From Thioalkalivibrio sp. (GTDB taxonomy: Bacteria > Pseudomonadota > Gammaproteobacteria > Ectothiorhodospirales > Ectothiorhodospiraceae), in contig JAABTX010000003.1 of assembly GCA_011389655.1 (NCBI GenBank), positions 1-64,000 of the forward strand: 64,000 bases of DNA. The letters run 5' to 3'. Both the position numbers and the translations under genes were made by a program. Every line of letters begins with the position of its first letter. The stretch's first letter is position 1. This document shows positions 9,549-28,613 of this stretch, piece by piece. The notes beneath the pieces were generated by a model, which was given only the letters and a program-made list of their open reading frames with translations, had not been told where the DNA came from and made no database searches.

Positions 9549-11456
9549 TCAGACCAGCGGCGGATCCTGCGCCACCGCGAGATTCAGTGCCCGCAGCTGC
9601 GGCATCTTCTTCTGCTGATGATCCTGCATGCGATGCAGAATGCGATCCAGCGTACGCAATGCGGAGACGATGAACGGACCCTTGTTCAGCATCACGCACT
9701 CGGCCCGCACCGACATGGCGGCATCGCTCAACTCCGGACGCGAGACGGCCCCGGTCTTGGCCATCGTCTCCAGCACCTGCGTGGCCCAGATCACCGGCAC
9801 GTGACCACCCTCGGCCAGCCAGAGGATCTCCTCCTGGATCTCCGCGAGCCGCTCGCCGCCCACCTCGACCGCGAGATCGCCGCGCGCGATCATGATCGCC
9901 AGCGGGTAGCGCCCGATGGTGCTCAGCATGATCTCGGGAAGATTGCGCAGTGCGCGACCGGTCTCGATCTTGGCCACGATCGCCAGCGCCCCGGCACCGC
10001 GACGCTTGAGCTCTTCCATCAGCACGCGCATGTCCCCTGCACTCTCGACGAAGGAGAACCCGACCAGGTCGGCATGGCGCACGACGAAGTCGAGATCGGC
10101 CAGATCCTTTCCGCTCAACGGACCGAGACCGAGCTCGGCACCCGGAAGGTTGATCCCCTTGTCGGCGCGCAGCCGGAAACCGTCGGGCGCTGCGTGTGTC
10201 ACCCGCAGAGAGACGAAGTCCGGCCCCGTTTCCTCCACCATCGCGCCGAGACGCCCGTCATCGATCCACACGGCCTGCCCGACACACAGATGCGGCAGAA
10301 CCCGGGATGCGGTAATGCCGACGCGCGCCGGCTCACGTTCGTTTCCCTCCGCGTCCAGGAGTGGCGGACGTCCGGGAAGCTCGGGTCCCGTAAGCTGCAG
10401 GAGATCCCCGAGATGCAGGCGGATCTTTACCGGGAGCCGACGATGCCCGCTCAAGCGCACGGGATCGACCGTCACCCGGGCCCAGCGATCATCCTGCCAC
10501 CGCATCAGCCGCATCGCGGTATCCGGGCCGATCACGCTGGTCTTGCTGGCGCGCACGAGCCAGCCCAGCCCCCCGAGTTTCCGTTCCACCACCAGGCGGC
10601 GGTTCCGACCGCGCAGATCGGTGAACTGCAGACGGTCGCCCGCTTCCATCGCGACGAGGACCCAGTCCTCGGCGACCAGGCAGACGTCCGCAATCCCATC
10701 GGGCAGTGCGTGTTGCCCGGCAGCCGACACCAGGGCCACCCTCACCGGTTCGCGCACACCCGAAGCCGCGGCCCGTCGCGGCCGCAGGCGGGTCGAGGCC
10801 GGCGCATCCTCCAGTGGCCCGGTACGGATCTTGTGGCCGGCGAGATCCATCAGTATCCGGCAGCCCCGGCCCAGGCTCGCCTCCGCGTTGCGGATGTTCT
10901 CGATCATGCGCCGCCAGACCGGCAGATCGTCGTGGGCGCAATTGATGCGAGCACAGTCCATGCCGGACTCGAGCAGGGCCCTCACAAGACCCTCATTCGT
11001 GGCTGCCTCGGCCGGCATCGTGACCATGATCCGCGCCGTGCGCCGCGGCTGAGGCGGCCCGAAGACCGTCCTGGCATTGATTGCCAACAATTCGTTACCG
11101 GCATCGAAGCCGGGGACCGCCGCAGGCTCCAGCATCGGGTCGGGTTCACCGCACAGTGCGGTGAGGACGCCGATCACCTGATCGATGCTCGCGAGCACGT
11201 GGGCCTCGACCCGGCCGAGCGACGACAGGCCCTGCCGCGCCAACCGGAGCTGCAGCGGCCGCAGGTCCCGGCAGCGCAGCGCGAGGTAGTCGGCCAGGTT
11301 GCGGGCGCTGACTGCATAGTCTCCGTCGACGTCCGTCCGTGCGAACCAGCGCAGGCGCTGGGCCGCGCCTGCCAGGACTTCCTCGCGCAACGCAAGCATC
11401 TCCGAAAGCAGGGCCCGGTATTCCACGGCCGGGCCGGCCGGGTCAGATTCGATCAT
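9549..11456 (-). CDS. Pyruvate-kinase-like protein with N-terminal extension and altered active site
   Basis: This protein of about 635 aa has a roughly 135-aa helical N-terminus of unknown kind, then a pyruvate kinase barrel and no C-terminal regulatory domain. Barrel motifs are recognisable but changed. RINCAHDD replaces RLNFSHG, MDLAGHKIRTG replaces DTKGPEIRTG, and FSFVESA replaces ASFIRKA, so the catalytic Lys (K270 in rabbit) is missing. AKIE, IARGD (metal ligands) and ATQ remain. A large B-domain-like insert of about 200 aa sits in the middle. The Pho box just upstream puts it under PhoB. The track start is a TTG at 11519 upstream of the Pho box and is unlikely. ATGs at 11456 or 11399 are more plausible. 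The function is unknown; PEP or another phosphoacid may be bound. Confidence 0.75.
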   Translation of the reverse strand: MIESDPAGPAVEYRALLSEMLALREEVLAGAAQRLRWFARTDVDGDYAVSARNLADYLALRCRDLRPLQLRLARQGLSSLGRVEAHVLASIDQVIGVLTALCGEPDPMLEPAAVPGFDAGNELLAINARTVFGPPQPRRTARIMVTMPAEAATNEGLVRALLESGMDCARINCAHDDLPVWRRMIENIRNAEASLGRGCRILMDLAGHKIRTGPLEDAPASTRLRPRRAAASGVREPVRVALVSAAGQHALPDGIADVCLVAEDWVLVAMEAGDRLQFTDLRGRNRRLVVERKLGGLGWLVRASKTSVIGPDTAMRLMRWQDDRWARVTVDPVRLSGHRRLPVKIRLHLGDLLQLTGPELPGRPPLLDAEGNEREPARVGITASRVLPHLCVGQAVWIDDGRLGAMVEETGPDFVSLRVTHAAPDGFRLRADKGINLPGAELGLGPLSGKDLADLDFVVRHADLVGFSFVESAGDMRVLMEELKRRGAGALAIVAKIETGRALRNLPEIMLSTIGRYPLAIMIARGDLAVEVGGERLAEIQEEILWLAEGGHVPVIWATQVLETMAKTGAVSRPELSDAAMSVRAECVMLNKGPFIVSALRTLDRILHRMQDHQQKKMPQLRALNLAVAQDPPLV

Positions 11457-11480
11457 GGGCGCGGTGTTTAGCATGACTGA

Positions 11481-11509
11481 ATGACAAGGCGATGACTGTT
11501 TGGTGACAA
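11481..11509 (-). promoter_or_regulatory. Candidate Pho box upstream of the pyruvate-kinase-like gene
   Basis: On the minus strand the sequence reads TTGTCAC-CAAA-CAGTCAT-CGCC-TTGTCAT, three units at exact 11-bp steps close to CTGTCAT. It lies about 25 bp before the ATG at 11456. Its position excludes the upstream TTG start and hints at a very short or absent 5' leader. Confidence 0.8.
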
Positions 11510-11680
11510 AGGCCTGCAACGCGGAAACGATACTCTCCCGCCCCGCGAGGAAGGGAGCCGACGAAGGGCCAGGAGGCGCCCACCTAGCGTGAAGGTCGCG
11601 CGCCGCGCCCCGGACGCGCTATTGCTTTCGAGACCGGCCCCTGGCTGGACAGTCTACGGTCTGTCGCCCCGGGTTAGCGC

Positions 11681-11787
11681 TATGGAGTGCGGGAGCTTGC
11701 TCACGCCTTCACGCGCGGAAGCTTGCTTCCGCAACGGGAGGCGAGCCTCCTGCAGGGCAAAACGGCGGCAAGCCGCCGCACTCCATA
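11681..11787. mobile_element. 107-bp MITE-like element with perfect 12-bp terminal inverted repeats
   Basis: The element opens with tatggagtgcgg and closes with ccgcactccata, exact reverse complements. Inside are smaller hairpins, including gcggaagc-ttgc-ttccgc and cggcggcaagccgccg. It is noncoding. It sits between the pyruvate-kinase-like gene and the olsB promoter. I see no obvious target duplication. Confidence 0.7.
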
Positions 11788-11872
11788 CCGGGCTTACGCC
11801 TTCATCGTCCGGGGTGGCGCGGTGCCATGACAGTTGGCGAAGGCCGGCGTAAACGAAGGATCGCGGGCTCAA

Positions 11873-11912
11873 GATTCACAGCGCTGTCAACTAAATTTCA
11901 AGGGCCTGTCAC
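11873..11912 (+). promoter_or_regulatory. Candidate four-unit Pho box upstream of olsB
   Basis: Units at 11-bp steps are GATTCAC (11873), CTGTCAA (11884), ATTTCAA (11895) and CTGTCAC (11906). The second and fourth match the PhoB consensus closely. The box ends 45 bp before the chosen ATG. Confidence 0.75.
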
Positions 11913-11956
11913 CATGCGCCCCCAAGCTATGGGGTCTGTAACCCAAGAGGATGTTC

Positions 11957-12730
11957 ATGCCGCAACTCGCTGAATACGGGCCCTGGGCACCGGCTCCCCG
12001 TCAGGCCCTGGTCACCGAGCTGGCCTCCAGCCCGGCCGATGTACTCGCCTGTCAGCAGCTGCGCTACCGGGTCTTCGCCCAGGAGATGGGCGCGCGTCTG
12101 CCGACCGCCGATCGCGGTATCGATGCCGATGGCTATGACGCATTCTGCCGCCATCTGCTTGTCCGCGAGGTCGATACCGGTGAGGTCGTGGCCAGTACCC
12201 GCATCCTGGTTTCGGACGACGCACCCGCCGCGGGCGGTTTTTACTCCCAAGGCGAATTCGACCTCGGAGCGCTGGTGGATCTTCCCGGCCGGGTCATGGA
12301 GGTCGGACGGACCTGCGTGCGCGCGGACTACCGCACGGGCTGGGCCATCAACGCGCTCTGGACCGGCCTGGCAAGGGTGATGACCCGGGGAGGTTTCGAC
12401 TTCATGATCGGTTGCGCGAGCATTCCCTTTGCACCGCATGACAAGGCAGCACATGCGCTGCTGAAGCAGCTCTACGCGAAGCATCCCTCGCCGCCGCAGT
12501 ACCGCGTCCATCCCCGCCAGCCGATGCCCGCCACGCCCGGCGCGTCCGCCTCACCGGCGCCCCTGCCACCCCTGCTGAAGGCATACCTGCGGCTGGGCGC
12601 GAGCATCTGCGGCGAGGCCTGCTGGGATCCGGACTTCGGGGTCGCCGACGTCTTCATCCTCCTGGATGTCAGGGAGGTGCCGGATCGGTATCGACGTCAT
12701 TTCCTGCGGGAACCGATGCTGGTGCCGTGA
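11957..12730 (+). CDS. olsB: L-ornithine N-alpha-acyltransferase OlsB (ornithine lipid synthesis)
   Basis: OlsB moves a 3-hydroxyacyl group from ACP to ornithine, the first step to phosphorus-free ornithine lipids. The 257-aa protein has the GNAT-like hemolysin/OlsB domain with LRYRVFAQEMG near residue 35, VGRTCVRADYR at about 115-125 and DFMIGCASIPF at about 150. The final part holds a family-typical DPDFGVADVFILLD segment. AGAGG at 11946-11950 abuts the ATG at 11951, so I choose the ATG at 11957 with 6-nt spacing. No olsA-type second acyltransferase is adjacent; it would have to be elsewhere. The upstream Pho box fits the known induction of ornithine lipids by phosphate limitation. Confidence 0.85.
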   Translation: MPQLAEYGPWAPAPRQALVTELASSPADVLACQQLRYRVFAQEMGARLPTADRGIDADGYDAFCRHLLVREVDTGEVVASTRILVSDDAPAAGGFYSQGEFDLGALVDLPGRVMEVGRTCVRADYRTGWAINALWTGLARVMTRGGFDFMIGCASIPFAPHDKAAHALLKQLYAKHPSPPQYRVHPRQPMPATPGASASPAPLPPLLKAYLRLGASICGEACWDPDFGVADVFILLDVREVPDRYRRHFLREPMLVP

Positions 12731-12872
12731 TCCCCGCTACCGACGCAGGCGGCTGCAGTTGAGAGACCGCGATCGACCGGCTGTAGCCGCCCGCAGGAGC
12801 ATTGTGGCCTCTGGGCCGACCCAATGTACCGAAGCCGCGGGCCAGCAGTGACCGCACCGTGACCACCCGCCG

Positions 12873-13175
12873 CGAGACCGTTTCGTCTTCGCCTCGCGGA
12901 CGGACACGCAGCGCCTGGTGCTCCTGGAATCCATGGCGCTGGGCGTCCCCGTGGTAGCGCTGGCCGAGATGGGCACCAAGGACATCCTGGCGCCGGGGCG
13001 TGGCGCACTGGTCGCCCGTGAGGATCCGGAGGACTTCGCCGCAAAGGACCTGCAGTTGGTGCACAATCCGGGGCTGCGCGACGCACTGGCGATGGAGGCG
13101 AGGGAGTATGCAAGGAACTGGGACGGGCCGGTTCTCGCGCAGCGCATGCTCGATCTGTACCGTAGCCTGCGGTAG
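12873..13175 (+). pseudogene. Remnant of a GT4 glycosyltransferase (C-terminal end only)
   Basis: The open frame beginning near 12873 reads DRFVFASRTDTQRLVLLESMALG and continues to LYRSLR. It is the final 100 or so residues of a GT4 enzyme, including the second Glu of the E-x7-E region. The usual 280 upstream residues are absent, and the 140 bp between olsB and this point encode nothing recognisable. The track start is a GTG at 12918 inside the conserved block. Most likely it is a 5' deletion pseudogene of a lipid glycosyltransferase that once followed olsB. Expression as an 85-aa peptide cannot be excluded. Confidence 0.7.
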
Positions 13176-13280
13176 GCGGCCACCCCTGTCGGGGCCGCGT
13201 TATCCAGCGCGGGATCACCAACAGGACTCGCCTCCTGCACTGCGCTGGGAGGCCTTTGAACGAGAGAAGAGGAGGCAGTC

Positions 13281-14294
13281 ATGTCGATCCGCGTGGGCAT
13301 CAACGGTTTCGGGCGAATCGGGCGTCTCGCACTGCGGGCCGCCTGGGGCCGCGCAGACCTCGAGTTCGGGTTGATCAACGAGAAGGGTGGTGACGGCACC
13401 GTTTCCGCGCATCTGCTGGAATTCGATTCAGTGCACGGACGCTGGCCGCGTGCGGTGTCCGGCGAGTCGGACCGAGTCGGCATCGATGGAGAATGGATCG
13501 CGCACGTCAGTCACGACGCGCCGGGTGCCGTACCCTGGCGCGAGCACGGCATCGACCTGGTGATCGAATCCAGCGGACGTTTCCGCACCCTGGAGACGCT
13601 GGCGCCCTACTTCGACGCGGGGGTCCGCAAGGTCGTGGTCGCCGCGCCGGTCAAGGACCCGGGCGCGCTGAACGTGGTGGTCGGCGTGAATCATCACCTC
13701 TACGAACCCGGCCGTCACCGGGTGATCACCGCCGCCTCCTGCACCACCAATTGCCTCGCCCCGATCGTGAGTGTGCTGCACGCGGGCATCGGGATCCGCC
13801 ACGGTTCGATCCTCACGGTCCACGACATGACCGCCACGCAGTCGCCCGTCGACCGGCCACACGCCGACCTGCGGCGCGCCCGAGCCGCCGGTGTCTCGCT
13901 GATTCCCACCACCACCGGCTCCGCACGGGCCATCGGCGACATCTTTCCGGAGCTGAACGGACGTCTGAACGGCCACGCGGTCCGGGTCCCGCTGATGAAT
14001 GCATCCTTGACCGATTTCACCTTCGAGGCGGCCCGCGAGACCACCACCGACGAGGTCAACGGGCGGCTGAAGGCCGCGGCGGCGGCCGGACCGCTGGCGG
14101 GTATCCTGGGTTACGAGGAGCGCCCGCTGGTCTCCGCCGATTACCGGACCGATCCGCGCTCGGCGATCGTCGACGCCCCATCGACGCTGGTGATCGACGG
14201 CACGCAGGTGAAGGTGCTCGCCTGGTACGACAACGAATGGGGCTATGCGAACCGCCTGGTGGAGCTGGTCGAGCAGGTGGCGGCCTCGATGTAG
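13281..14294 (+). CDS. Glyceraldehyde-3-phosphate dehydrogenase, ArsJ-associated type
   Basis: The 337-aa protein has the Rossmann motif [15 protein letters not shown] at the N-terminus, the catalytic Cys in SCTTNC (C154) and the C-terminal [11 protein letters not shown]. From memory, the overall sequence ([27 protein letters not shown]-like and [12 protein letters not shown] blocks) is nearest to GAPDHs that sit beside arsJ. Those make 1-arseno-3-phosphoglycerate for export by ArsJ. No arsJ is present in this window. AGAGGAGG lies 7 nt before the ATG. A housekeeping glycolytic or gluconeogenic role is the alternative. No convincing Pho box precedes it. Confidence 0.85.
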
Positions 14295-14342
14295 CACCCA
14301 GCACCGAATATCGCCCCTGACCCCGCAGCTTCGGACTCAACG

Positions 14343-14702
14343 ATGGCATACAGCAATCACCGCGGACTCACCCGCATCATCAAGGCCTTCGGCTATTCCT
14401 GGAGTGGGCTGCGTTCGACCTTCCGGCACGAGGAGGCCTTCCGGCAGGAACTGCTGCTGTGCCTGGTGCTGATTCCCGCGGCCTTGTGGCTCACCGATGT
14501 CGGCGTCGAACGCGCGCTGCTGATCGGCAGCCTGTTCCTGATCCTGATCGTGGAACTGCTGAACTCCGGGATCGAGGCGGCCATCGACCGCTTCGGTGAG
14601 GAACTGCACAAGTTGTCCGCGCGCGCGAAGGACATGGGCTCCGCCGCGGTGCTGCTCTCGTTCATCAACGCCGGGGCAATCTGGCTGCTGGTGTTGCTGT
14701 AG
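14343..14702 (+). CDS. dgkA: Diacylglycerol kinase
   Basis: This is a 119-aa three-helix membrane enzyme that phosphorylates diacylglycerol to phosphatidate with ATP. The signature ELLNSGIEAAIDRF is present at about residues 69-82, and the glutamate-rich first helix (FRHEEAFRQE) is conserved. In this neighbourhood it would return diacylglycerol released by PlcP to phospholipid synthesis, opposing the PAP2 and glycosyltransferase route. It lies 48 bp after the GAPDH gene on the same strand. Confidence 0.93.
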   Translation: MAYSNHRGLTRIIKAFGYSWSGLRSTFRHEEAFRQELLLCLVLIPAALWLTDVGVERALLIGSLFLILIVELLNSGIEAAIDRFGEELHKLSARAKDMGSAAVLLSFINAGAIWLLVLL

Positions 14703-14732
14703 GAGAAACGGCGGGAACGGCGGGCGGGAACG

Positions 14733-14756
14733 GGGACAGATTTATAAATCTGTCCC
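14733..14756. repeat. REP palindrome
   Basis: The sequence gggacagattta/taaatctgtccc is a perfect 24-bp palindrome 30 bp after dgkA. It is the same family as 4873, 16635, 17092, 27833, 30066 and 40940. Confidence 0.9.
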
Positions 14757-14812
14757 AGACTGCCATCAATACACTTTTTATCAGTGTCTTGGAACGCCTT
14801 TCTTAGAAAAAA

Positions 14813-14852
14813 TCGTCAGAAAACCTTCAACCCGATGCCATGGATACGTAAC
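14813..14852 (+). promoter_or_regulatory. Weak candidate Pho box upstream of the PlcP-like gene
   Basis: Four degenerate units occur at 11-bp steps: TCGTCAG, CCTTCAA, ATGCCAT and ACGTAAC. The periodicity is exact but each unit departs from CTGTCAT. The block ends 46 bp before the ATG, the same distance as in olsB. Confidence 0.4.
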
Positions 14853-14897
14853 GGATGAAGAGCAGGCTGGCCGCATGTTGAATGCCGGAGTCAAGCC

Positions 14898-15743
14898 ATG
14901 CCTTCCTTCGACTGCCGAACCGCCTTCGTATCCGACGTCCACCTGGGTACCCGCGACTGCCGCGCCGCCTACCTGCTCGATTTCCTGAAGCGCCTCGACT
15001 GCGACCGGCTCGTACTGGTCGGGGATGTCTTCGACCTGTGGGCGATGCGCCGCCGCGTGGTGTGGACCCGGGAGCAGTCCGCGATCCTCGAGCATGTGTT
15101 CGCCCTTGCCGAGAACGGTACCGAGGTCATCTACATACCCGGCAACCACGACGAACACATGCGCCGCCTGATCGGCTCGGAGATCCGGGGCGTTCGCATC
15201 CTTCGGAATATGGAACACGAGACCGCGGACGGGCGGCGCTTTCTCGTGAGCCATGGCGATGAATTCGACGATGAAGTCCGTCACAGTCGATTCCAGCACC
15301 ACATCGGAGACCTCAGCTATCAGTTCCTGCTGCAGATCAGCTACTGGGTCGACCGGCTTCGAAGGCGGATGCAGCGGCCCTACTGGTCTCTGTCCACCTG
15401 GGCGAAGACCCGGGTGGGGCGGGTGCGCGACTACATCGGCCGCTTCGAGGCGGCCGCCACCCGCGCGGCCCGCGAGGGCGGCTACGACGGGTATATCGGC
15501 GGCCATATCCACAAGGCCGCGATCAGCCCGCGGCACGGCATCCTCTATTGCAACACCGGAGACTGGGTGGAGCACTGCACCGCCCTGATCGAGGACCATG
15601 GCGGCTATCTGCACCTGGTGCACTGGTCCGACCACGCGCGGCTGGATGCCAGCGATAGTGGTCGAACGGGCGCCGGACGTGACACGGGACGTCTGCCACC
15701 TGAGCTTGCCTGGTTGTACGCCGCGGCAACAACGACCCGCTGA
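14898..15743 (+). CDS. plcP: PlcP-type metallophosphoesterase (phospholipase C-like, LpxH-related)
   Basis: This 281-aa calcineurin-like phosphoesterase has all five metal motifs: SDVHLGT (12-18), GDVFDLW, GNHDEHM, SHGDEFD and GHIHKA. LpxH is about 240 aa. This protein has the longer middle region and C-terminal tail of the PlcP group, which cuts phospholipid headgroups to give diacylglycerol under phosphate starvation in rhizobia and marine bacteria. The nearby olsB, dgkA, GT4 and pst genes support that reading over lipid A synthesis. GGAG lies 7 nt before the ATG. Assignment as PlcP rather than an LpxH paralogue is from motif and context only. Confidence 0.75.
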   Translation: MPSFDCRTAFVSDVHLGTRDCRAAYLLDFLKRLDCDRLVLVGDVFDLWAMRRRVVWTREQSAILEHVFALAENGTEVIYIPGNHDEHMRRLIGSEIRGVRILRNMEHETADGRRFLVSHGDEFDDEVRHSRFQHHIGDLSYQFLLQISYWVDRLRRRMQRPYWSLSTWAKTRVGRVRDYIGRFEAAATRAAREGGYDGYIGGHIHKAAISPRHGILYCNTGDWVEHCTALIEDHGGYLHLVHWSDHARLDASDSGRTGAGRDTGRLPPELAWLYAAATTTR

Positions 15744-16181: not shown

Positions 16182-16499
16182 TTAGCCCGACGAGGCCGCT
16201 CGCGACTTGACCGCTTTCGGGCTGGACGGGCGCCGTCGCGCACCGGCCCGCCGTTCCGCCTGCAACTCGCGCAGGACCCGAACGCCCTTCGCCCTCTGCG
16301 CATGAACTGCGCTCAGTTTGTCGGCCAGGTCTGCGCGCTGATCGCCGTCCGTGACCCTGGCCTGGAGATCCAGCAGCGCCCGTTCCCTGCCCCGGAGTTG
16401 CTTCAGCACCCTGCGGATCACCCGGATGCGCTCGTTCTCCCGGGACCTCTGCGGAGTCAGGCCTTCCAACAGTGTCAGCCAGAGCCTTCGAATATCCAT
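16182..16499 (-). CDS. Orphan basic coiled-coil protein with an upstream Pho box
   Basis: I do not recognise a family. The ATG at 16499 gives 105 aa (MDIRRLWLTLLEGL...). A GTG at 16508 would add three residues. The middle is a charged helix rich in Arg, Glu and Leu with coiled-coil character (about 25-85). The C-terminus is very basic (RRAGARRRPSSPKAVKSR). There is no signal peptide or membrane helix. A clear three-unit Pho box lies 49 bp upstream on the same strand, so it looks like a true phosphate-regulated gene. DNA, RNA or polyphosphate binding is possible from the charge, but that is a guess. Confidence 0.6.
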   Translation of the reverse strand: MDIRRLWLTLLEGLTPQRSRENERIRVIRRVLKQLRGRERALLDLQARVTDGDQRADLADKLSAVHAQRAKGVRVLRELQAERRAGARRRPSSPKAVKSRAASSG

Positions 16500-16547
16500 C
16501 GCCCGCACTTGGAACGGATTATCTCGTTCGGAGTCTGCCTGGCGTCA

Positions 16548-16576
16548 GTGACGTCCTGATGACGCTTTTGTGACAA
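16548..16576 (-). promoter_or_regulatory. Candidate Pho box upstream of the orphan coiled-coil gene
   Basis: The minus strand reads TTGTCAC-AAAA-GCGTCAT-CAGG-ACGTCAC, three units at 11-bp steps, all keeping GTCA. The A-rich first spacer matches the classical Pho box. Confidence 0.75.
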
Positions 16577-16634: not shown

Positions 16635-16662
16635 CGGGGACAGATTTATTAATCTGTCCCCG
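16635..16662. repeat. REP palindrome at the 3' end of a membrane protein gene
   Basis: cggggacagatt and aatctgtccccg form a 12-bp stem. The stop codon of the minus-strand membrane protein gene (16649) lies inside this copy. Confidence 0.85.
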
Positions 16663-17074
16663 GGGCGCCCCTGGCGTGCCGAGGACGCGAGGGGGGCATG
16701 AGGCGGAAGCGGAAGGCGGCCTCAAGCAGGCGCAGCGAGACCACGAACGCGAGCACGAGAAAGGCGATCGTGCCGTTGGCAATGCCGCCCGCCAATCCGC
16801 CCGCCAGTCCGAGGCCCAGGAGCAGCGTCAGCAGCGTGGCCGCAAGACGGCTTCGGGCCCAGCCCGCGAACAGTGCCAGCAGGGCCACCAGCGTCCCCTC
16901 GATCATCGTCGGCAGGTGGTTCATCAGGAATCCGAGCAGCACCACGGTCACGCCGGACAGCATCAGCAGCCAGCCCGCGGCGCGCGCCAGCCGGAGCGCC
17001 TGCTCGCGGGAACGCAGAGGACGGAAGATCAGGAGAAGATCCGCCGGAGGGCTGGGTCGCCTGGGTTTGGTCAT
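16649..17074 (-). CDS. Hypothetical membrane protein
   Basis: I do not recognise a family. The 141-aa protein has about four hydrophobic helices from residue 30 to 120 (AAGWLLMLSGVTVVLLGFLM onwards) between basic ends. It lies downstream of phoU on the same strand and is flanked on both sides by REP palindromes. Its last codons (PGTD and stop) are supplied by the downstream REP, so the original C-terminus may have been replaced. No good Shine-Dalgarno precedes the ATG. It could be translated from the phoU message. Confidence 0.55.
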   Translation of the reverse strand: MTKPRRPSPPADLLLIFRPLRSREQALRLARAAGWLLMLSGVTVVLLGFLMNHLPTMIEGTLVALLALFAGWARSRLAATLLTLLLGLGLAGGLAGGIANGTIAFLVLAFVVSLRLLEAAFRFRLMPPSRPRHARGAPGTD

Positions 17075-17091: not shown

Positions 17092-17117
17092 GGGGACAGA
17101 TTTATAAATCTGTCCCC
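17092..17117. repeat. REP palindrome at the 3' end of phoU
   Basis: ggggacagattta/taaatctgtcccc is a perfect 26-bp palindrome. The minus-strand reading GGG ACA GAT TTA TAA gives the last residues and stop of PhoU. Confidence 0.92.
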
Positions 17118-17851
17118 TCTGTGCCCTGTCCGGCCTTTTCCTCGACGATGGCCTCCATCTCGCTCAGATCGATGTGGCGCACGTCGCGCCCCTTGACGAG
17201 GTAGATGGTGTATTCGCACATGTTCCGGGCGTGGTCCCCGACGCGCTCCAGCGCCCTGGTCGCATGGGTCACGTCCAGCATCCGCGAGATGTTCCGCGGA
17301 TCCTCCATCATGTACGTCACGTTCTGCCGCATGATGGCCTCGTGGTCGCTGTCGATCGCGAAGTCCTGGCGCACCACGGTCACCGCGGCGGCGGCGTCCA
17401 TGCGGGCGAATGCATCGAGCGCATCCCCGAGCATCTTGATCACGCGGTTGCCCATGGTCTCGATGTCGCGGAAGGTCTGCTTGCGCGGCCGGTCGCCCTG
17501 GGCCTGGCGCAGCGCCATGCGTGCGATCGACGCCGCCAGGTCGCCGATGCGTTCGAGGTCCGTGATGGTCTTGATCACCGCGACGATCAGGCGCAGGTCC
17601 ATCGCCGCCGGCTGGCGCCGGGCGAGGATCTCCACGCAGCGTTCGTCAATGGTCACCTCGAAGGTGTTGACCCGCGTATCGTTCTCCGTGACCTCCTGCG
17701 CGACCGGGGAATCGCCGTCGATGAAGGCCTGGAGCGCGTTCGACAGTTGGGACTCCACGAGGCCACCCATGGCAAGCACACGGTTGACGACCTCTTCCAG
17801 CTCCGCGTCGTAACGATGCGAGTAATGCCCGCCAATACGCCTGTTTTCCAT
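17102..17851 (-). CDS. phoU: Phosphate-specific transport system accessory protein PhoU
   Basis: PhoU links PstSCAB to PhoR and keeps the Pho regulon off when phosphate is ample. The 249-aa protein is two three-helix bundles with the metal-binding repeats (KTITDLERIGDLAASIAR at about 95-112 and TRALERVGDHARNMCEY at about 200). It is last in the minus-strand pstC-pstA-pstB-phoU order. The C-terminal residues GTDL come from an inserted REP palindrome; the family normally ends without such a sequence. Confidence 0.96.
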   Translation of the reverse strand: MENRRIGGHYSHRYDAELEEVVNRVLAMGGLVESQLSNALQAFIDGDSPVAQEVTENDTRVNTFEVTIDERCVEILARRQPAAMDLRLIVAVIKTITDLERIGDLAASIARMALRQAQGDRPRKQTFRDIETMGNRVIKMLGDALDAFARMDAAAAVTVVRQDFAIDSDHEAIMRQNVTYMMEDPRNISRMLDVTHATRALERVGDHARNMCEYTIYLVKGRDVRHIDLSEMEAIVEEKAGQGTEGTDL

Positions 17852-17915: not shown

Positions 17916-18755
17916 TCAGCCGTAGCGGCCAGTGATGTAATCCTCGGTCGCCTTCTGGCCCGGATTGGTGAACAGGTGCATGGTGTCGGCATATTCGATC
18001 AATTCGCCGAGATACATGTACGCGGTGTAATCGGAGACGCGCGCCGCCTGCTGCATGTTGTGGGTGACGATCAGGATGGTGTATTTCTCCTTCAGCTCCT
18101 CCATCAGCTCCTCGATCTTGGCGGTCGAGATCGGGTCCAGTGCCGAGGTGGGCTCGTCGAGCAGGATCACTTCCGGCTCGATCGCGATCGCGCGGGCAAT
18201 CACCAGGCGCTGCTGCTGCCCGCCGGACAGGCCGAAGGCGTTGCTCTGCAGGCGGTCCTTCACCTCGTCCCACAGCCCGACGGCCTTGATCGAACGCTCG
18301 ACGACCTCATCGAGCAGGCGCTTGTTCTTCACTCCCTGCAGCCGCAGGCCGTAGGCGACGTTCTCGTAGATCGACTTCGGAAATGGATTCGGCTTCTGGA
18401 ACACCATCCCCACCCGGCGGCGGAGCTCTGCGACATCGGTACCCCGGCCGTAGATGTTGTCACCATGCAGATTGATCGCCCCCTCGATCCGGCAGGAGTC
18501 CACCAGATCGTTCATGCGATTGAAGCACCGCAGCAGGGTCGACTTGCCGCAGCCTGAAGGGCCGATGAAGGCGGTCACCCGCCTCTCGGGAATCTTCATG
18601 CTAATCCCCTTCAGGGCCTGGTCATCGCCGTAGTACAGGTCCAGGCCTTCCACGGTGATCGCTATTTTTTCGTCCGCAAGGGACCGGACCTGGCGGCTGG
18701 TGCCCTCGAACAGACTGGCATTCAGGCTGGTCGCGGCGGGGTTCCTCTGGCTCAT
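17916..18755 (-). CDS. pstB: Phosphate ABC transporter ATP-binding protein PstB
   Basis: This is the ATPase of the high-affinity phosphate importer. It has Walker [10 protein letters not shown], signature LSGGQQQR, Walker B VILLDEP and the PstB-typical block [19 protein letters not shown]. The track start at 18782 gives 288 aa. I prefer the ATG at 18755 (279 aa) because GGAG stands 6 nt before it. It lies between pstA and phoU on the minus strand. Confidence 0.95.
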
Positions 18756-18809
18756 TTGGTTCTCCGTCAACATACTCGACATCTCGTCACTGGGCCGAAT
18801 TACCGGCCC

Positions 18810-20465
18810 TCAATCGCTTTCCGCGCGGTACTTCTCGCGCAGGTGGTTACGGATCGTGATCGCGGTGAGGTTCAGCACCACGATCAGCAGCACCAGGATC
18901 AATGCGGTGGCATAGACCAGTTGCTCTGCAGCCTCTGCGTGCGGGCTCTGGAAGCCCACGTCGTAGATGTGGAACCCGAGGTGCATGATCTTGCGCTCCA
19001 GGTGAATGAACGGGAAATTCCCATCGACGGGCAGCGTTGGTGCAAGCTTCACCACGCCGACGAGCATCAGCGGGGCGACCTCGCCGGCGGCACGCGCGAT
19101 CGCCAGGATCAGGCCGGTCATCATCGCGGGCGTTGCCAGCGGCACCACCACCTTCCACAGAGTTTCCCCCTTCGTCGCCCCCAGCGCCAGCGAACCCTCG
19201 CGGATCGTCGACGGAATGCGCGCGAGACCCTCCTCGGTGGATACGATCACCACCGGCAGCGTCAGCAGCGCGAGGGTCAGCGAGGCCCAGAACAGGCCCG
19301 GTGTGCCGAAGGTGGGTGCCGGCAGCGCCTCGGGATAGAAGGTCCGATCGATGGCCCCGCCCAGGAAGTACACGAAGAAGCCGAGACCGAAGACCCCGAA
19401 CACGATCGACGGCACCCCCGCCAGGTTGTAAACGGAGATGCGCACCGTCTTCAGGATGGGTCCCTGTCGCGCGTACTCGCGCAGGTAGATCGCCGCGAGG
19501 ATGCCGAAGGGGGTCACGATGATGGACATCACCAGCACCATCACCACGGTGCCGAATATTGCCGGGAAGATCCCCCCCTCGGTGTTCGCCTCGCGGGGAT
19601 AGCCGAAGATGAAGTCGAAGAAGTCCTTCGCGTAGAAGCCGATCTTCTCGAGCACGGACATGTTGTTCGGCTGCCAGGCCTTCACGATATCGGCGAGCCG
19701 GATCGTCACCTCCTGCCCATCGGCCACCCGCATCACGATACCGTCGCGTGCGGCCGCTTCGTAGAGCCGGTTCAGCTGTTCCTCCAGCACGCGGTACTCT
19801 GCCTGCAGCTCCTCGCGCCGCTGCTCCAATTCCGCCCGCCGCTCATCCGTCAAGGCTCCCCGGAGTTCCGCCTTGCGTTCATCCAGACGCACGCGTTCGA
19901 TCGCGAAATTGATCCGGCCGATCGCGCCGCGCTCGATGCCCCGGATCTCGTCGTAGAGGTTGTTGCTCCTCTCCAGCCGGCGCTGGAACTCGGGCCACAG
20001 CTCATCGCCCACCGCTACCGTGGAGCCCTCCTCGAGCAGACGCAACGGGTATCCCATGAAGTCGCCCCACTCCCGCCGCTCCAGGACCCCGATGTCCTCA
20101 GGGTACCGCCAATCGTCCATGAAGCCGTCTATGAAGTATCCAAAATCCTGATTGGTTACATCACGGTTGCCCATCTTGATCAGGTGCCGCTCAATCAGCA
20201 GCTGATCCCCCGGAATGTCGACCCCGGCGTCCCGCATCGACTGAGCGGTGAGCGTTTCCGACCGGCGCAGTTCGCCAATCACCCGTACCGGGGTATCCGC
20301 ATCCGGGTGCGTGTAGGTCGTCTCGAGAATCGCATGGGGCCAGAAGTTTCCGAACCCGCGCACCAGGATCAGCAGGAGCAGTCCGAAGACCATGATCATG
20401 CTGATTGTTACCGCTCCGCCGTTCAGCCAGATCCACGGGGAACCGCTCTTCCACCATTCTCTCAT
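18810..20465 (-). CDS. pstA: Phosphate ABC transporter permease PstA (long form)
   Basis: This is an inner-membrane subunit of the Pst importer. The usual six-helix permease domain occupies about residues 290-540, with GALRAAGEVAPL-like coupling sequence (AIARAAGEVAPLMLVG). In front is a first helix at about 16-38 and then about 240 extra residues, partly a charged helical hairpin (ERRAELEQRREELQAEYR). The total of 551 aa compares with about 296 in E. coli. Long PstA forms occur in Pseudomonas-type and chromatial Pst systems. The gene follows pstC by 26 bp. Confidence 0.93.
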   Translation of the reverse strand: MREWWKSGSPWIWLNGGAVTISMIMVFGLLLLILVRGFGNFWPHAILETTYTHPDADTPVRVIGELRRSETLTAQSMRDAGVDIPGDQLLIERHLIKMGNRDVTNQDFGYFIDGFMDDWRYPEDIGVLERREWGDFMGYPLRLLEEGSTVAVGDELWPEFQRRLERSNNLYDEIRGIERGAIGRINFAIERVRLDERKAELRGALTDERRAELEQRREELQAEYRVLEEQLNRLYEAAARDGIVMRVADGQEVTIRLADIVKAWQPNNMSVLEKIGFYAKDFFDFIFGYPREANTEGGIFPAIFGTVVMVLVMSIIVTPFGILAAIYLREYARQGPILKTVRISVYNLAGVPSIVFGVFGLGFFVYFLGGAIDRTFYPEALPAPTFGTPGLFWASLTLALLTLPVVIVSTEEGLARIPSTIREGSLALGATKGETLWKVVVPLATPAMMTGLILAIARAAGEVAPLMLVGVVKLAPTLPVDGNFPFIHLERKIMHLGFHIYDVGFQSPHAEAAEQLVYATALILVLLIVVLNLTAITIRNHLREKYRAESD

Positions 20466-20491
20466 CTCGCGTTCCTCGAATCAGATCCGGG

Positions 20492-22789
20492 TCAGAGCGA
20501 CGCGTAGCGCTTGCGGAGTCGCTGGCGCACGATCTCCGCTGCCGTATTCAGCACGAAGGTGAACACCAGGAGAACCAGCGCGGAGAGGAACAGCACCCGG
20601 AAATGGGTTGAACCCACGGCGGTCTCCGGCAGCTCCACGGCGACATTGGCGGCAAGCGTGCGCATGCCCTCAAACAGGTTGAAATTCACCACCGGGCTGT
20701 TGCCGGAGGCCATCAGCACGATCATGGTCTCGCCAACGGCACGCCCGAAGCCGATCATGATCGCGGAGAAGATTCCGGGACTTGCGGTCAACAGCACGAC
20801 GCCCATCATGGTCTGCCAGGGTGTGGCGCCCAACGCCAGCGAACCGTTGGTCAGATGGCGGGGCACGTTGAACACCGCGTCCTCCGCGATGGAGAAGATG
20901 GTGGGAATCACCGCAAAACCCATGGCCATGCCCACGATCAGTGCATTGCGCTGATCGTAGGGAATGCCGACATCGGTGAACCACTGTCGCATCGAGCCAT
21001 CGAAGAACCAGACTTCGATAAGGGGGCTGGTGGCCACCACCAGCCAGCCGGTTGCGATTACGACCGGAATCAGGAGCGCCGCTTCCCACCCTCCCGGCAC
21101 CAGCTCACGCACCGAGTGCGGGAGCCGGGACCAGAGGAATGCGGCCACCAGGATGAACAGAGGGAAGGCGATCAGCCCGGTGAGCAGGATTGGCAGATTG
21201 TTCTCGATATAGGGCGCGAGCCAGATCCCGGCGAGAAATCCAAGGATCACGGTCGGCAACGCCTCCATCAGCTCGATGGAGGGCTTGACCACGCGGCGGA
21301 TGGCGGGCGCCATGAAATACGCGGTGTAGATGGCCCCCATGATGGCCAACGGCATCGCCAGCAGCATCGCGAATACCGCAGCCTTGAGTGTCCCCACGGA
21401 CAGGGGTATGAGACTGTACTTGGCCTCGAAGGCATCGTCGGCCGAGGACGACTGCCAGACGAAAGCGGGTTCCCCGCGACCCTCGTACCAGACGGGTCCC
21501 CAGAGCGCACTGATCGAGGTCTGCGGGTGTGGATTGTCGATCGTCAGAACCCGCATCTCGTCGGAGGCCTCGCCGGTCACCAGCGCGCGACCGTTATTGG
21601 GGCCCATCGCAATGCGCACGATCGCACTCTCGGTCACTTGCTGCATCGCGAGCGTCGCATGGGAGGTGGCGTAGTGCAGGCCGACGTTGCCTTCGGCATC
21701 ACCGGTCATGAAGCCCTTGCGAAGGTATTCCGGCTCGATCACGGTGACCGCGCCGGCGTGTCTCCGGAAGCTTCGAATCGGGGTCATGCGCGGTTCGCCG
21801 GTCTCCTCGTCACGGACCAGGAACCACTGGCGGACGCTGCCATCCGAGCCGCCGACGATCAGTGAGCGCGACCCCACGAGGAGCTCGGCCGCGGTGACCC
21901 GTGCATCCGGTCCGGTCAGGTCGACCTCCTCGATCAGGAACGGGTTGTTCCGGTCGACGATGTCGAAGTTGAAGAGGCGGCCACGGTCATCGACAACGAA
22001 GAGGTTGCGAAGCGAATCGTTGACCAGGATCTGGCGCACCGGGTGCCCCAGGTCGGGCAGACGGAAATCCCGGCGCTGTTTTTCGACTGCGCCGGTCATC
22101 AGATTGGTCCGGGTGGTGAAGAGCGCCATCGTGATCTCGCCCGCTTCGGTGCCACCGGCGACAATGTACCCGCCCCGCCCGTCGACCACGGTCAGCGCCG
22201 AGTAGTCCGCGATCCCCCTGTCACCGAGGGAGATGGGTTCCTCGCCGAGCGGAAACCCGAGCTCCGGTTCGATCTGCCGAACGCCGCGCACAAAGCTCTG
22301 CGTGTACTCGACCTCCAGGGGCAGCATACTGCCATCCGAAAATCCGTAGACATAGAGACGATCCCGACTCTCGCCGCTACCGAAGGCCGTGACGCGCTCG
22401 CCTTCCGGCACCGGGACCGGCACGCGCGAGCGGACGGCACCGGATCCCGCTTCGAAAAACGTGATGACCCCGGTCCCGGAAAAGTGGGCGCCGATCTTCT
22501 CGTAACGGTCCAGGGTGAGATGCAGGGTCGATGTCTGATCGGTGTCCCACGGCACCGAGAACTCGGTCTCCATCGCGACGTTAACGGGCTTGAGTAGCGG
22601 GAAGGCCTCGTAAAACAGGTAAACGAAGATCAGGGCCAGCGCGATGATCACGCCGATGCCGCTGGAACCCACACCATAGCGCGAGAACCCGTCACGAAAG
22701 GCGCGTTTCCTGCGCAGCTTCTGGCGCCGTTCCGAAGTCGGGAGCGGGGATTCGTAAGGGAGCCCGTCTTCGGGCGTGGTCGCAGACAT
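20492..22789 (-). CDS. pstC: Phosphate ABC transporter permease PstC (long form with periplasmic domain)
   Basis: The 765-aa protein has an N-terminal helix at about 46-64. A large soluble insert of about 380 residues follows, rich in beta strands and in Gly/Asp-type turns that suggest a propeller-like fold (SRSLIVGGSDGSVRQWFL). Then comes the canonical permease domain (about 455-760) with GRAVGETMIVLMASGN. E. coli PstC is 319 aa. The insert is known from pseudomonad-type PstC proteins and has no assigned role. The gene pairs with long PstA next to it. Confidence 0.93.
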   Translation of the reverse strand: MSATTPEDGLPYESPLPTSERRQKLRRKRAFRDGFSRYGVGSSGIGVIIALALIFVYLFYEAFPLLKPVNVAMETEFSVPWDTDQTSTLHLTLDRYEKIGAHFSGTGVITFFEAGSGAVRSRVPVPVPEGERVTAFGSGESRDRLYVYGFSDGSMLPLEVEYTQSFVRGVRQIEPELGFPLGEEPISLGDRGIADYSALTVVDGRGGYIVAGGTEAGEITMALFTTRTNLMTGAVEKQRRDFRLPDLGHPVRQILVNDSLRNLFVVDDRGRLFNFDIVDRNNPFLIEEVDLTGPDARVTAAELLVGSRSLIVGGSDGSVRQWFLVRDEETGEPRMTPIRSFRRHAGAVTVIEPEYLRKGFMTGDAEGNVGLHYATSHATLAMQQVTESAIVRIAMGPNNGRALVTGEASDEMRVLTIDNPHPQTSISALWGPVWYEGRGEPAFVWQSSSADDAFEAKYSLIPLSVGTLKAAVFAMLLAMPLAIMGAIYTAYFMAPAIRRVVKPSIELMEALPTVILGFLAGIWLAPYIENNLPILLTGLIAFPLFILVAAFLWSRLPHSVRELVPGGWEAALLIPVVIATGWLVVATSPLIEVWFFDGSMRQWFTDVGIPYDQRNALIVGMAMGFAVIPTIFSIAEDAVFNVPRHLTNGSLALGATPWQTMMGVVLLTASPGIFSAIMIGFGRAVGETMIVLMASGNSPVVNFNLFEGMRTLAANVAVELPETAVGSTHFRVLFLSALVLLVFTFVLNTAAEIVRQRLRKRYASL

Positions 22790-22828
22790 GGTCTACCCCT
22801 GATTGCGCGCTATCGTTTCAGAGAGAAA

Positions 22829-22859
22829 GGGGCCCCGCCACAGACAGTGACGGGGCCCC
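22829..22859 (-). terminator. Attenuating terminator between pstS and pstC
   Basis: The 9-bp stem ggggccccg/cggggcccc has a 13-nt loop. On the minus strand it is followed by TTTCTCTCT. It lies just after the pstS stop and would let pstS be expressed above the rest of the operon. Confidence 0.75.
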
Positions 22860-22878
22860 GTCCCACAGGCCAGCGAAC

Positions 22879-23835
22879 TCAGTCCAGGTTCTTCTCGTTC
22901 AGGAAGCGCTCCGCGGCCGCGGCGGACAGCGGAACGTAGCCATCCTTGTCCACGACCTCCTGGCCTTCCTTCGAGAGCACCATGCGGAAGAACTCCTGCT
23001 CCAGCGGGTTCCAGCCGTCGTTCGGATGCTGGTTGGCATACACGTAGAGGAAGCGGGCCAGCGGGAATTCGCCGGACACGGCGTTGTCCGCAGTGGCCTC
23101 GGCGCCGTTCAGCGGGATCGCGCGCACGCCGGAGGTCTTGTAGCCGATGCCGGAGTAGCCGATGCCGCCGAGCGTCTGCTCAACGCCCCGAACCACGGCC
23201 GAGGAGCCCGGCTGTTCGTTGACCTCCGCCTTGAAGTCGCCGCCGCAGAGTGCGTTCTCCTTGAAGTAGCCGTAGGTGCCGGACACGGCGTTACGACCGT
23301 AAATGGTGATGTCCCGGTCGGCCCAGCTACCGGTCATGCCAGCGTCACCCCAGCTGCTGATGTCCTGGTCGTAGCCGCAGGCGCGGGTCTCGGAGAAGAT
23401 GGCGTCCACCTGCTCCAGGGTCAGGCCTTCGATCGGGTTGTCCTTGTTTACATACACCGCAACCATGTCGATCGCGACCGGGACCTCCGCCGGCGGATAA
23501 CCGTATTTTTCCTCGAACTCACGCACCTCGGAGTCACGCATCTGCCGGCTCATCGGCCCGAAGTTGGCGGTGCCCTCGATCAGGGCAGGGGGCGCGGTGG
23601 AGCTGCCGGCACCCTGGATCTGGATATTCACGTTCGGGTAGAACTTCGTGAACTCTTCCGCCCAGAGGGTCATCAGGTTGTTCAGCGTGTCGGAACCCAC
23701 GGAACTCAGGTTGCCGGAGATGCCGGATACACGCTCGTAGCTGGGCAGGTTCGGGTCGACCTGGGCGGAGGCCACTGAGACGGACATTCCCAGGGCGGCG
23801 ACGACGCCCAGGGCGAGGGATTTCTTCATCATCAT
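22879..23835 (-). CDS. pstS: Phosphate ABC transporter substrate-binding protein PstS
   Basis: This is the periplasmic phosphate binder of the Pst importer. The 318-aa protein begins [25 protein letters not shown], a Sec signal peptide. Binding-site blocks [30 protein letters not shown] and [14 protein letters not shown] are clear. Two Cys (RACGYD and NALCGGDF) may pair. The track ORF starts at 24015, upstream of the Pho box, and is too long. GAGGA lies 9 nt before the ATG at 23835. A Pho box lies about 105 bp upstream. Confidence 0.96.
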
Positions 23836-23940
23836 GATCGGTATTCCTCGGTTTGGAATGGTAGTCACGAACAGGGCAGGCATTCGGGCCATTGCCATTG
23901 CTTCGCGGGCCTCAGTATTGCGTTCAGGGATCACAACGAT

Positions 23941-23969
23941 ATGACCGAAAGATGACAATTCGATGACAG
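23941..23969 (-). promoter_or_regulatory. Pho box upstream of pstS
   Basis: The minus strand reads CTGTCAT-CGAA-TTGTCAT-CTTT-CGGTCAT, three near-consensus units at 11-bp steps. This is the best Pho box in the window and calibrates the others. Confidence 0.9.
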
Positions 23970-23978
23970 GCGATGCAT

Positions 23979-24872
23979 TCATCGCGAGGGGGGTCCTGCC
24001 GCCGCCGGAGCCCACTGCACGATGCCCAGCTGCAACTCCAGGCGCGTGAAGGCGTTGACCGTCCCGGGCGCCTCGATCAGGCGCATGCGCCTGGGTCGCA
24101 GACCTGTATCGGACCAGTTCCAGCCCTCGTATTCGACTCGCACCCGTTCACCACCGGCATCGTCCCGCAGCTCGAGATGGATGGGGCGCTCCAGATTGTC
24201 AAGCTGCAGCCTGATGCCGAGCCCTCCGGGGCGGATCCGCCCCACCCGGGTGCGCCCGTCGTCCAGATCCTCCCATTCGATTCCCTGCCCGGCGAACCAG
24301 ACCCAGGGCGTCAACACCGCTTCGCCGAGCGCCTGAGCCCTGAGTGCGAGTTCGGAGGATCGAGCCGCGGGGTGGTGAATCCGCCACACGCCCAGCCACC
24401 AGTATCCGCTCGAGACGGATCCTTCCTCGACCTCATGCATCTCGTCGATCCAGCCGAGGTACCGGAGCCGCACCCGCCGGATCTGGGCCCACCAGACGCC
24501 GGGGATGCTGAAGGTGTCGGCCACCACCGGCCGCTCCCGCTGATCCTGGTCGTAGCGCAGCCAGCCCCGTGCAGGCCAGCAAGCCGGGCCCGCGGGTTGA
24601 CGGTCGACAGTCATGCCCCGTAGCAGACGCCGGGCCGACTCACCGGAAATCTGCGCGATCACCCGGGCGGCCGTTGGCGGCGCCTTCTGCGCATGAAAAT
24701 CCGCAACCGCTTCCAGGTAGCGGCCCTCGATCTGCAGGCGAATCCGGCGCAGCCGCAGCCAGGGCAGGATCAGCACCATGGACGCGAGCAGAACCGCCGC
24801 CAGGGCCGTACCCAGGGCCACCCAGAGCGACAGGCCGCTGCCGGTCACGGTCTCATCCTCGGCCTGGCGCAC
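23979..24872 (-). CDS. DUF6544/DUF6920-like membrane-anchored protein
   Basis: The 297-aa protein has one N-terminal helix at about 14-36 and a soluble remainder. The blocks [45 protein letters not shown]-like and a terminal LELQL segment resemble the uncharacterised DUF6544 family. Its role is unknown. It ends 10 bp before the pstS Pho box and follows the FKBP gene with almost no gap on the same strand. It may be transcribed with sel1 and fkbp. Confidence 0.55.
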
Positions 24873-27923: not shown

Positions 27924-28613
27924 TCAGTTCTGCCTGGAGAACCGGTAGCCGGCACCGCGGATCGTCTGGACGAGGGTGTCGTGACCGGACTCCGCGAGGG
28001 CCAGCCGGAGTCGGCGAATGTGCACATCGACCGTTCGCTCTTCCACGTAGACGTTGGTGCCCCATACATTATCGAGCAACTGGCCACGGGAGAATACCCG
28101 GTCCTCGTGGGTCATGAAGAAATGCAGGAGACGGTATTCCGTCGGCCCCATCTCCACGGTTCTGCCGCTTGCGCTCACGCGGTGACTGACCGGGTCCAGC
28201 CGCAGGCCCGCCACCTCGACCGGTTCATCGCTGCTGGTCGGCGTGGTGCGTCTGAGCACCGCGCGGATCCGGGCGATCAGTTCGCGCGGGGAGAACGGCT
28301 TGGTCACGTAGTCGTCGGCCCCGACGTCGAGGCCGCGGACCCGGTCCTCCTCCTCGCCCCGGGCCGTCAGCATGATGATCGGCAGCTCCCGCGTGTGCGG
28401 GGCCTCCTTCAGGGTGCGGGCCCACTCGACGCCGCTGACATCCGGCAGCATCCAGTCGAGCAGGACCAGGTCGGGCTCGCGTACCAGCATCGACTCGCGG
28501 GCCTGCCGCACATCGGCCGCCTCGGAGACGGTGAAGCCGGCCTTTTGAAGCGGCAGGGCGAGCACCTCGCGAACCGCCGCGTCATCCTCGACCAGGAGGA
28601 TATGAAGGCTCAT
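27924..28613 (-). CDS. phoB: Phosphate regulon response regulator PhoB
   Basis: The 229-aa OmpR-type regulator has the phosphoacceptor D53 in LLDWMLPD, K105 in TKPFSPREL and a C-terminal winged helix (about 130-227) with [12 protein letters not shown] and RGAGYRF. It binds Pho boxes as direct-repeat dimers. Its own gene has a Pho box 35 bp upstream, so it is probably autoactivated. Confidence 0.95.

Follow-up and report, generated by a model that had tools for sequence, protein, structure and literature searches.

On the minus strand of the window, the 64,000-nucleotide stretch of Thioalkalivibrio sp. DNA analysed here, the genes pstS, pstC, pstA and pstB (17916-24015, pstS having its own Pho box) are followed by phoU (17102-17851, PF01895) and, further 3', by the gene orfX (16182-16499). 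The product of orfX is a basic protein (pI 11.8) of 105 amino acids from its ATG, or 108 from an alternative GTG at 16508, and it contains the core motif KLSAVHAQRAKG. The GC content of the gene by codon position is 0.72/0.52/0.80. The first-pass annotation placed orfX beside pst-phoU. It does lie 3' of pstSCAB-phoU, but an ORF for a 141-aa membrane protein (16649-17074, minus strand), which has no family match and an orthologue seen only in L024, is located between orfX and phoU. In two relatives that lack orfX (G015 and G006), plcP and phoU converge with about 140 bp between them; orfX and the 141-aa ORF thus occupy an extra segment here.

Within the genus, orfX is carried by 5 of 30 genomes, including the window's own, and is thus dispensable for Pho regulation in general. 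The orthologues in the four other Thioalkalivibrio species share 51-61% identity, all five proteins start with MDIR, and pairwise dN/dS among the five ranges from 0.22 to 0.52. The lack of a conserved ORF in relatives had been named as grounds for refutation; instead, it is conserved in four species under purifying selection. The position 3' of phoU is kept in four of the five species. In the fifth (G012), orfX lies away from pst, adjoins a NUDIX-like gene and retains its Pho box.

Two other features of the surrounding DNA were observed. A near-palindromic, REP-like repeat of 22 bp, GGACAGATTTATNAATCTGTCC, occurs in six copies (at 14734, 16638, 17094, 27841, 30070 and 40942) where none is expected by chance, and three of them are situated around the plcP/orfX/phoU junction. 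The region 9549-15743 holds a probable Pho-regulated lipid-remodelling cluster, with genes for a pyruvate-kinase-like protein, an OlsB-like ornithine acyltransferase, a glycosyltransferase, GAPDH, DgkA and a PlcP-like phosphoesterase. In this cluster, the pyruvate-kinase-like gene has an exact Pho box (11481-11507) and the OlsB-like gene a degenerate four-unit Pho box (about 11872-11912). The gene order is largely kept in L277 and L278, with dgkA unmatched in both.

The Pho box and promoter of orfX

Three GTCA-containing units at exact 11-bp steps had been reported ahead of the ORF, and they are present on the minus strand at 16548-16576 (TTGTCAC, GCGTCAT and ACGTCAC), 77 bp before the orfX ATG. 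Their core, GTCAC-N6-GTCAT-N6-GTCAC at 16548-16574, is the only place in the window that matches this exact pattern with zero mismatches. When up to three mismatches were allowed, the window had eight matches (1.8 expected), a number reached by none of 100 shuffles. Across the 3.46-Mb genome, a perfect GTCAY-N6-GTCAY-N6-GTCAY was found four times, where about 0.03 are expected at 65% GC: ahead of orfX, ahead of pstS (23941), ahead of the pyruvate-kinase-like gene (11481) and at a contig edge. Three of these four boxes fall within one 12.5-kb stretch. Pho boxes are also rare in nine related genomes (2 to 5 each at no more than one mismatch; 0 or 1 in controls), and wherever orfX is present its box is among these few.

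The architecture of the promoter is conserved. In all five orfX genes, the Pho box stands 76-78 bp upstream of the ATG in the orientation of the gene; these boxes beat at least 98% of shuffles on a two-unit score and all shuffles on a three-unit score. A putative -10 element, CAGACT (16532-16537, minus strand), lies 10 nt beyond the final Pho unit of orfX, and the promoter alignment gives exactly this distance in all five species, with CACACT as the element in one. The spacing to the -10 element is about the same at the window's pstS box, which has four units (23930-23967). Conservation of the box in a different orientation, for another gene, had been named as a further ground for refutation. 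The box instead keeps the orientation of orfX, the interval holds no divergent gene, and the next upstream gene is on the same strand. PhoR is encoded in the window, with a PhoB-like response regulator ORF adjacent (27924-28613). orfX is a real gene and is very probably controlled by PhoB.

The hairpin family and its transporter neighbours

The first-pass annotation could name no family for orfX, and searches of Pfam, NCBIfam, PHROGs and PDB sequences confirmed this for orfX and its relatives alike; assignment to a known family was rejected because no match lay above a curated cut-off or at a significant E-value. To call orfX an orphan was nevertheless mistaken, since homologues occur across the phylum and make up a wide family whose usual link is to Na+/Pi symporters, with pst genes as a rarer one. 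Members have 80-105 amino acids and share the core L-x2-L-x3-E ... QRxKG, with orfX as a divergent branch. Searches with orfX retrieved proteins of 83-105 amino acids that start with MKTKKLL and contain the same core, and its direct matches to NptA-linked members, made without a profile, are at 1e-9 to 1e-7; the match of orfX to the class-wide family profile (1.4e-33) is to a profile that has orfX itself among its rows. Profile searches recovered the family from 21 of 369 genomes sampled across the class and from 25 of 399 sampled across the phylum, other classes included. Hosts include Ectothiorhodospira and Motiliproteus, and no plasmid-borne relatives were found. In the tree, the five orfX genes form a single clade (support 100/100) with a long stem, grouped with NptA-linked members of the family with modest support. 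The core of the family has a median pI of 9.9 and is usually basic, with a range from 5.5 to 11.8. A Pho box as a trait of the whole family was rejected: the NptA-linked members have no three-unit box in the 250 bp upstream, and a few show weak two-unit similarities.

AlphaFold2 predicts orfX to be an antiparallel hairpin of helices 17-48 and 52-88 (core pLDDT about 97) with one short additional helix and an Arg-rich tail modelled at low confidence. The hairpin has no fold match in the PDB at an E-value below 0.001; only generic coiled-coil hairpins were retrieved. Identity with PhoU was rejected, as PF01895 is absent from orfX and from four family members and the model lacks the paired three-helix bundles of PhoU. 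A diverged PhoU fragment was likewise rejected, since hhalign comparisons of the family with PhoU and with the C-terminal domain of NptA gave no match. A joint MAFFT alignment that placed the hairpins on PhoU-like helices of the fusion described below was judged spurious.

What does the family accompany? Outside the orfX branch, 61 distinct members were collected; two fetched through NptA were set aside, and 56 of the remaining 59 had 700 bp or more of contig ahead of them. Of these 56 members, 49 conform to one arrangement: the member is directly 3' of a same-strand Na+/Pi symporter gene or fused to it, with a gap that is usually under 130 bp and sometimes an overlap. Representative symporters were identified by PF02690 and NF037997. 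Two further members (L146 and L148) stand directly before an NptA-like gene, two (L149, 4477-4731; L150, 4739-4996) stand directly before pstS in another class, and three have no recognised transporter link. This linkage was not built into the search, because the profiles were made from the small protein alone. The fusion, seen once, is a 698-aa ORF (L141 in G433) in which a short linker connects NptA in frame with the hairpin. The reciprocal search pointed the same way within the genus, where a family member stands behind every one of the eight PhoU-type NptA genes whose downstream DNA could be read. In the class sample, a member was found behind 10 of about 13 such NptA genes (one weak); of 15 NptA genes that are more distant, not one has a member.

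Several loci bring the family and Pst together. An NptA-hairpin-NptA-hairpin tandem occurs in L142 and L143, where the opposite strand carries pst genes within a few kb. In L032 (7327-9507), an NptA-hairpin pair is convergent with pstCAB-phoU, and the pstS neighbourhood of L149 and L150 is a second Pst link, in a distant lineage. orfX itself is not behind a Na+/Pi symporter, its branch being found 3' of pst-phoU instead. No NptA was detectable in the window's genome, which is 99.6% complete, and PhoU/Pst is thus the likely partner here.

The C-terminal half of the symporter has no Pfam match, and PF01895 also misses it. Its domain was modelled with the hairpin rows left out (mean pLDDT 89), and its best compact-fold matches were the PhoU crystal structures 1t72, 1t8b, 3l39 and 4q25. 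Foldseek gave these PhoU matches a probability of about 1 with TMt of at most 0.70 and weak E-values (0.06-0.4). The resemblance of the domain to PhoU is suggestive only.

Possible roles of orfX

With about even confidence, we propose that orfX is a PhoB-controlled accessory of phosphate transporters with PhoU-type regulation that has been recruited to Pst-PhoU. The proposal builds on what comparison of the sequences has established: a conserved coding gene, a conserved promoter architecture, family membership, tight linkage to Pi transporters and one fusion. The family would normally be made together with NptA-type Na+/Pi symporters bearing a PhoU-like C-terminal domain, and orfX would be a diverged copy, a small cytoplasmic helical hairpin under PhoB. 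The hairpin may dock on a phosphate transporter's PhoU-like regulator and thereby adjust transport or its signalling to PhoR, with an effect on import that could be positive or negative. In this lineage, pstSCAB-phoU would have received a duplicate of the NptA companion at its 3' end, and the duplicate would have gained a PhoB promoter of its own, so that orfX would be made in phosphate starvation as a partner of PhoU/PstSCAB. Such a recruitment to Pst-PhoU under PhoB is the simplest account. The generic fold of the hairpin, the weak E-values of the PhoU matches to the symporter domain and the failure of PF01895 to detect it, the unlinked orfX of G012, the sparse occurrence of orfX in the genus and the single occurrence of the fusion speak against the proposal. 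The earlier suggestion of an undescribed phosphate-response protein gains support from the conservation, the Pho box and the transporter linkage.

Might orfX act elsewhere in the starved cell? An effector with RNA, ribosomes, polyphosphate or DNA as its target would be co-regulated with the transporters without touching them. The high pI of orfX, its Arg-rich tail of low model confidence and the usually basic core of the family would suit such a binder, as would the G012 copy that keeps its Pho box away from pst. We consider this role unlikely, though it deserves some weight: the near-obligate adjacency to symporters, the recurrence at pst and the covalent fusion to NptA are hard to explain for a protein acting in trans, and the core pI of the family extends down to 5.5. 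Adjacency and fusion, together with the coiled-coil hairpin, would fit a chaperone or oligomerisation subunit that stabilises or assembles the NptA/PhoU-like domain or Pst with no role in signalling. A promoter of its own, beyond read-through from pst, suggests that the dosage of orfX is controlled separately from that of the transporter, and a purely structural role is judged rather improbable. It is very improbable that orfX is spurious or that its Pho box serves something else. Such an artefact could be short, GC-rich and confined to 5 of 30 genomes within the genus, as orfX is, but it would not be expected to show purifying selection, orthologues in four species that keep its start, orientation and promoter spacing, and membership of a wide family.

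Beyond orfX as a recruited transporter accessory, a tentative generalisation, which we hold somewhat short of even, is that the hairpins form an unrecognised class of transporter accessories that bind PhoU-type domains. Their usual partner would be NptA; in some lineages it would be Pst-PhoU under PhoB feedback, with the hairpin as a starvation-induced modulator of PhoU. The hairpin goes with PhoU-type domains across transporter classes and is once naturally fused to such a transporter. It would add to bacterial phosphate homeostasis a component that is absent from current family libraries. The coupling of transporter activity to PhoR by PhoU is an open question in phosphate sensing, for which a conserved small partner provides a concrete protein to test.

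Relation to known phosphate systems

The libraries and literature searched gave no description of the family or of its transfer from one class of transporter to another. Na+/Pi symporters of the NptA type whose C-terminal domain is PhoU-like have been described (PMC13170248), and the available portion of that source mentions no hairpin-type companion. The family shares Pi import with these symporters, its genes being directly behind theirs and in one case fused at the end. The hairpin differs from their PhoU-like domain in being a separate protein of 80-105 amino acids with no sequence relation detectable by profile comparison. The same portion describes SCO1846, a small gene beside pitA whose product is a membrane protein linked to PitA (PMC13170248). 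By description, orfX resembles it as a short uncharacterised protein encoded beside a Pi transporter and differs in that it looks soluble and belongs to a family tied to NptA and Pst.

The promoter of orfX shares with those of E. coli pstS, phoA and phoH the 11-bp direct repeats of TGTCA type at a fixed distance from the -10 element (PMC10294691), and a strict spacing of this kind is required at PhoB-activated promoters (PMC10294691). It differs from them in that its product is new and its binding by PhoB is predicted from the sequence. Like PhoU and PitR, orfX is a small, helical, presumably cytoplasmic protein encoded with a phosphate transporter, in this case 3' of phoU itself. Unlike them, it has no PF01895, is about 40% of their length and has two helices where they have paired three-helix bundles. 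An accessory regulator encoded together with a phosphate importer is nonetheless of a known kind.
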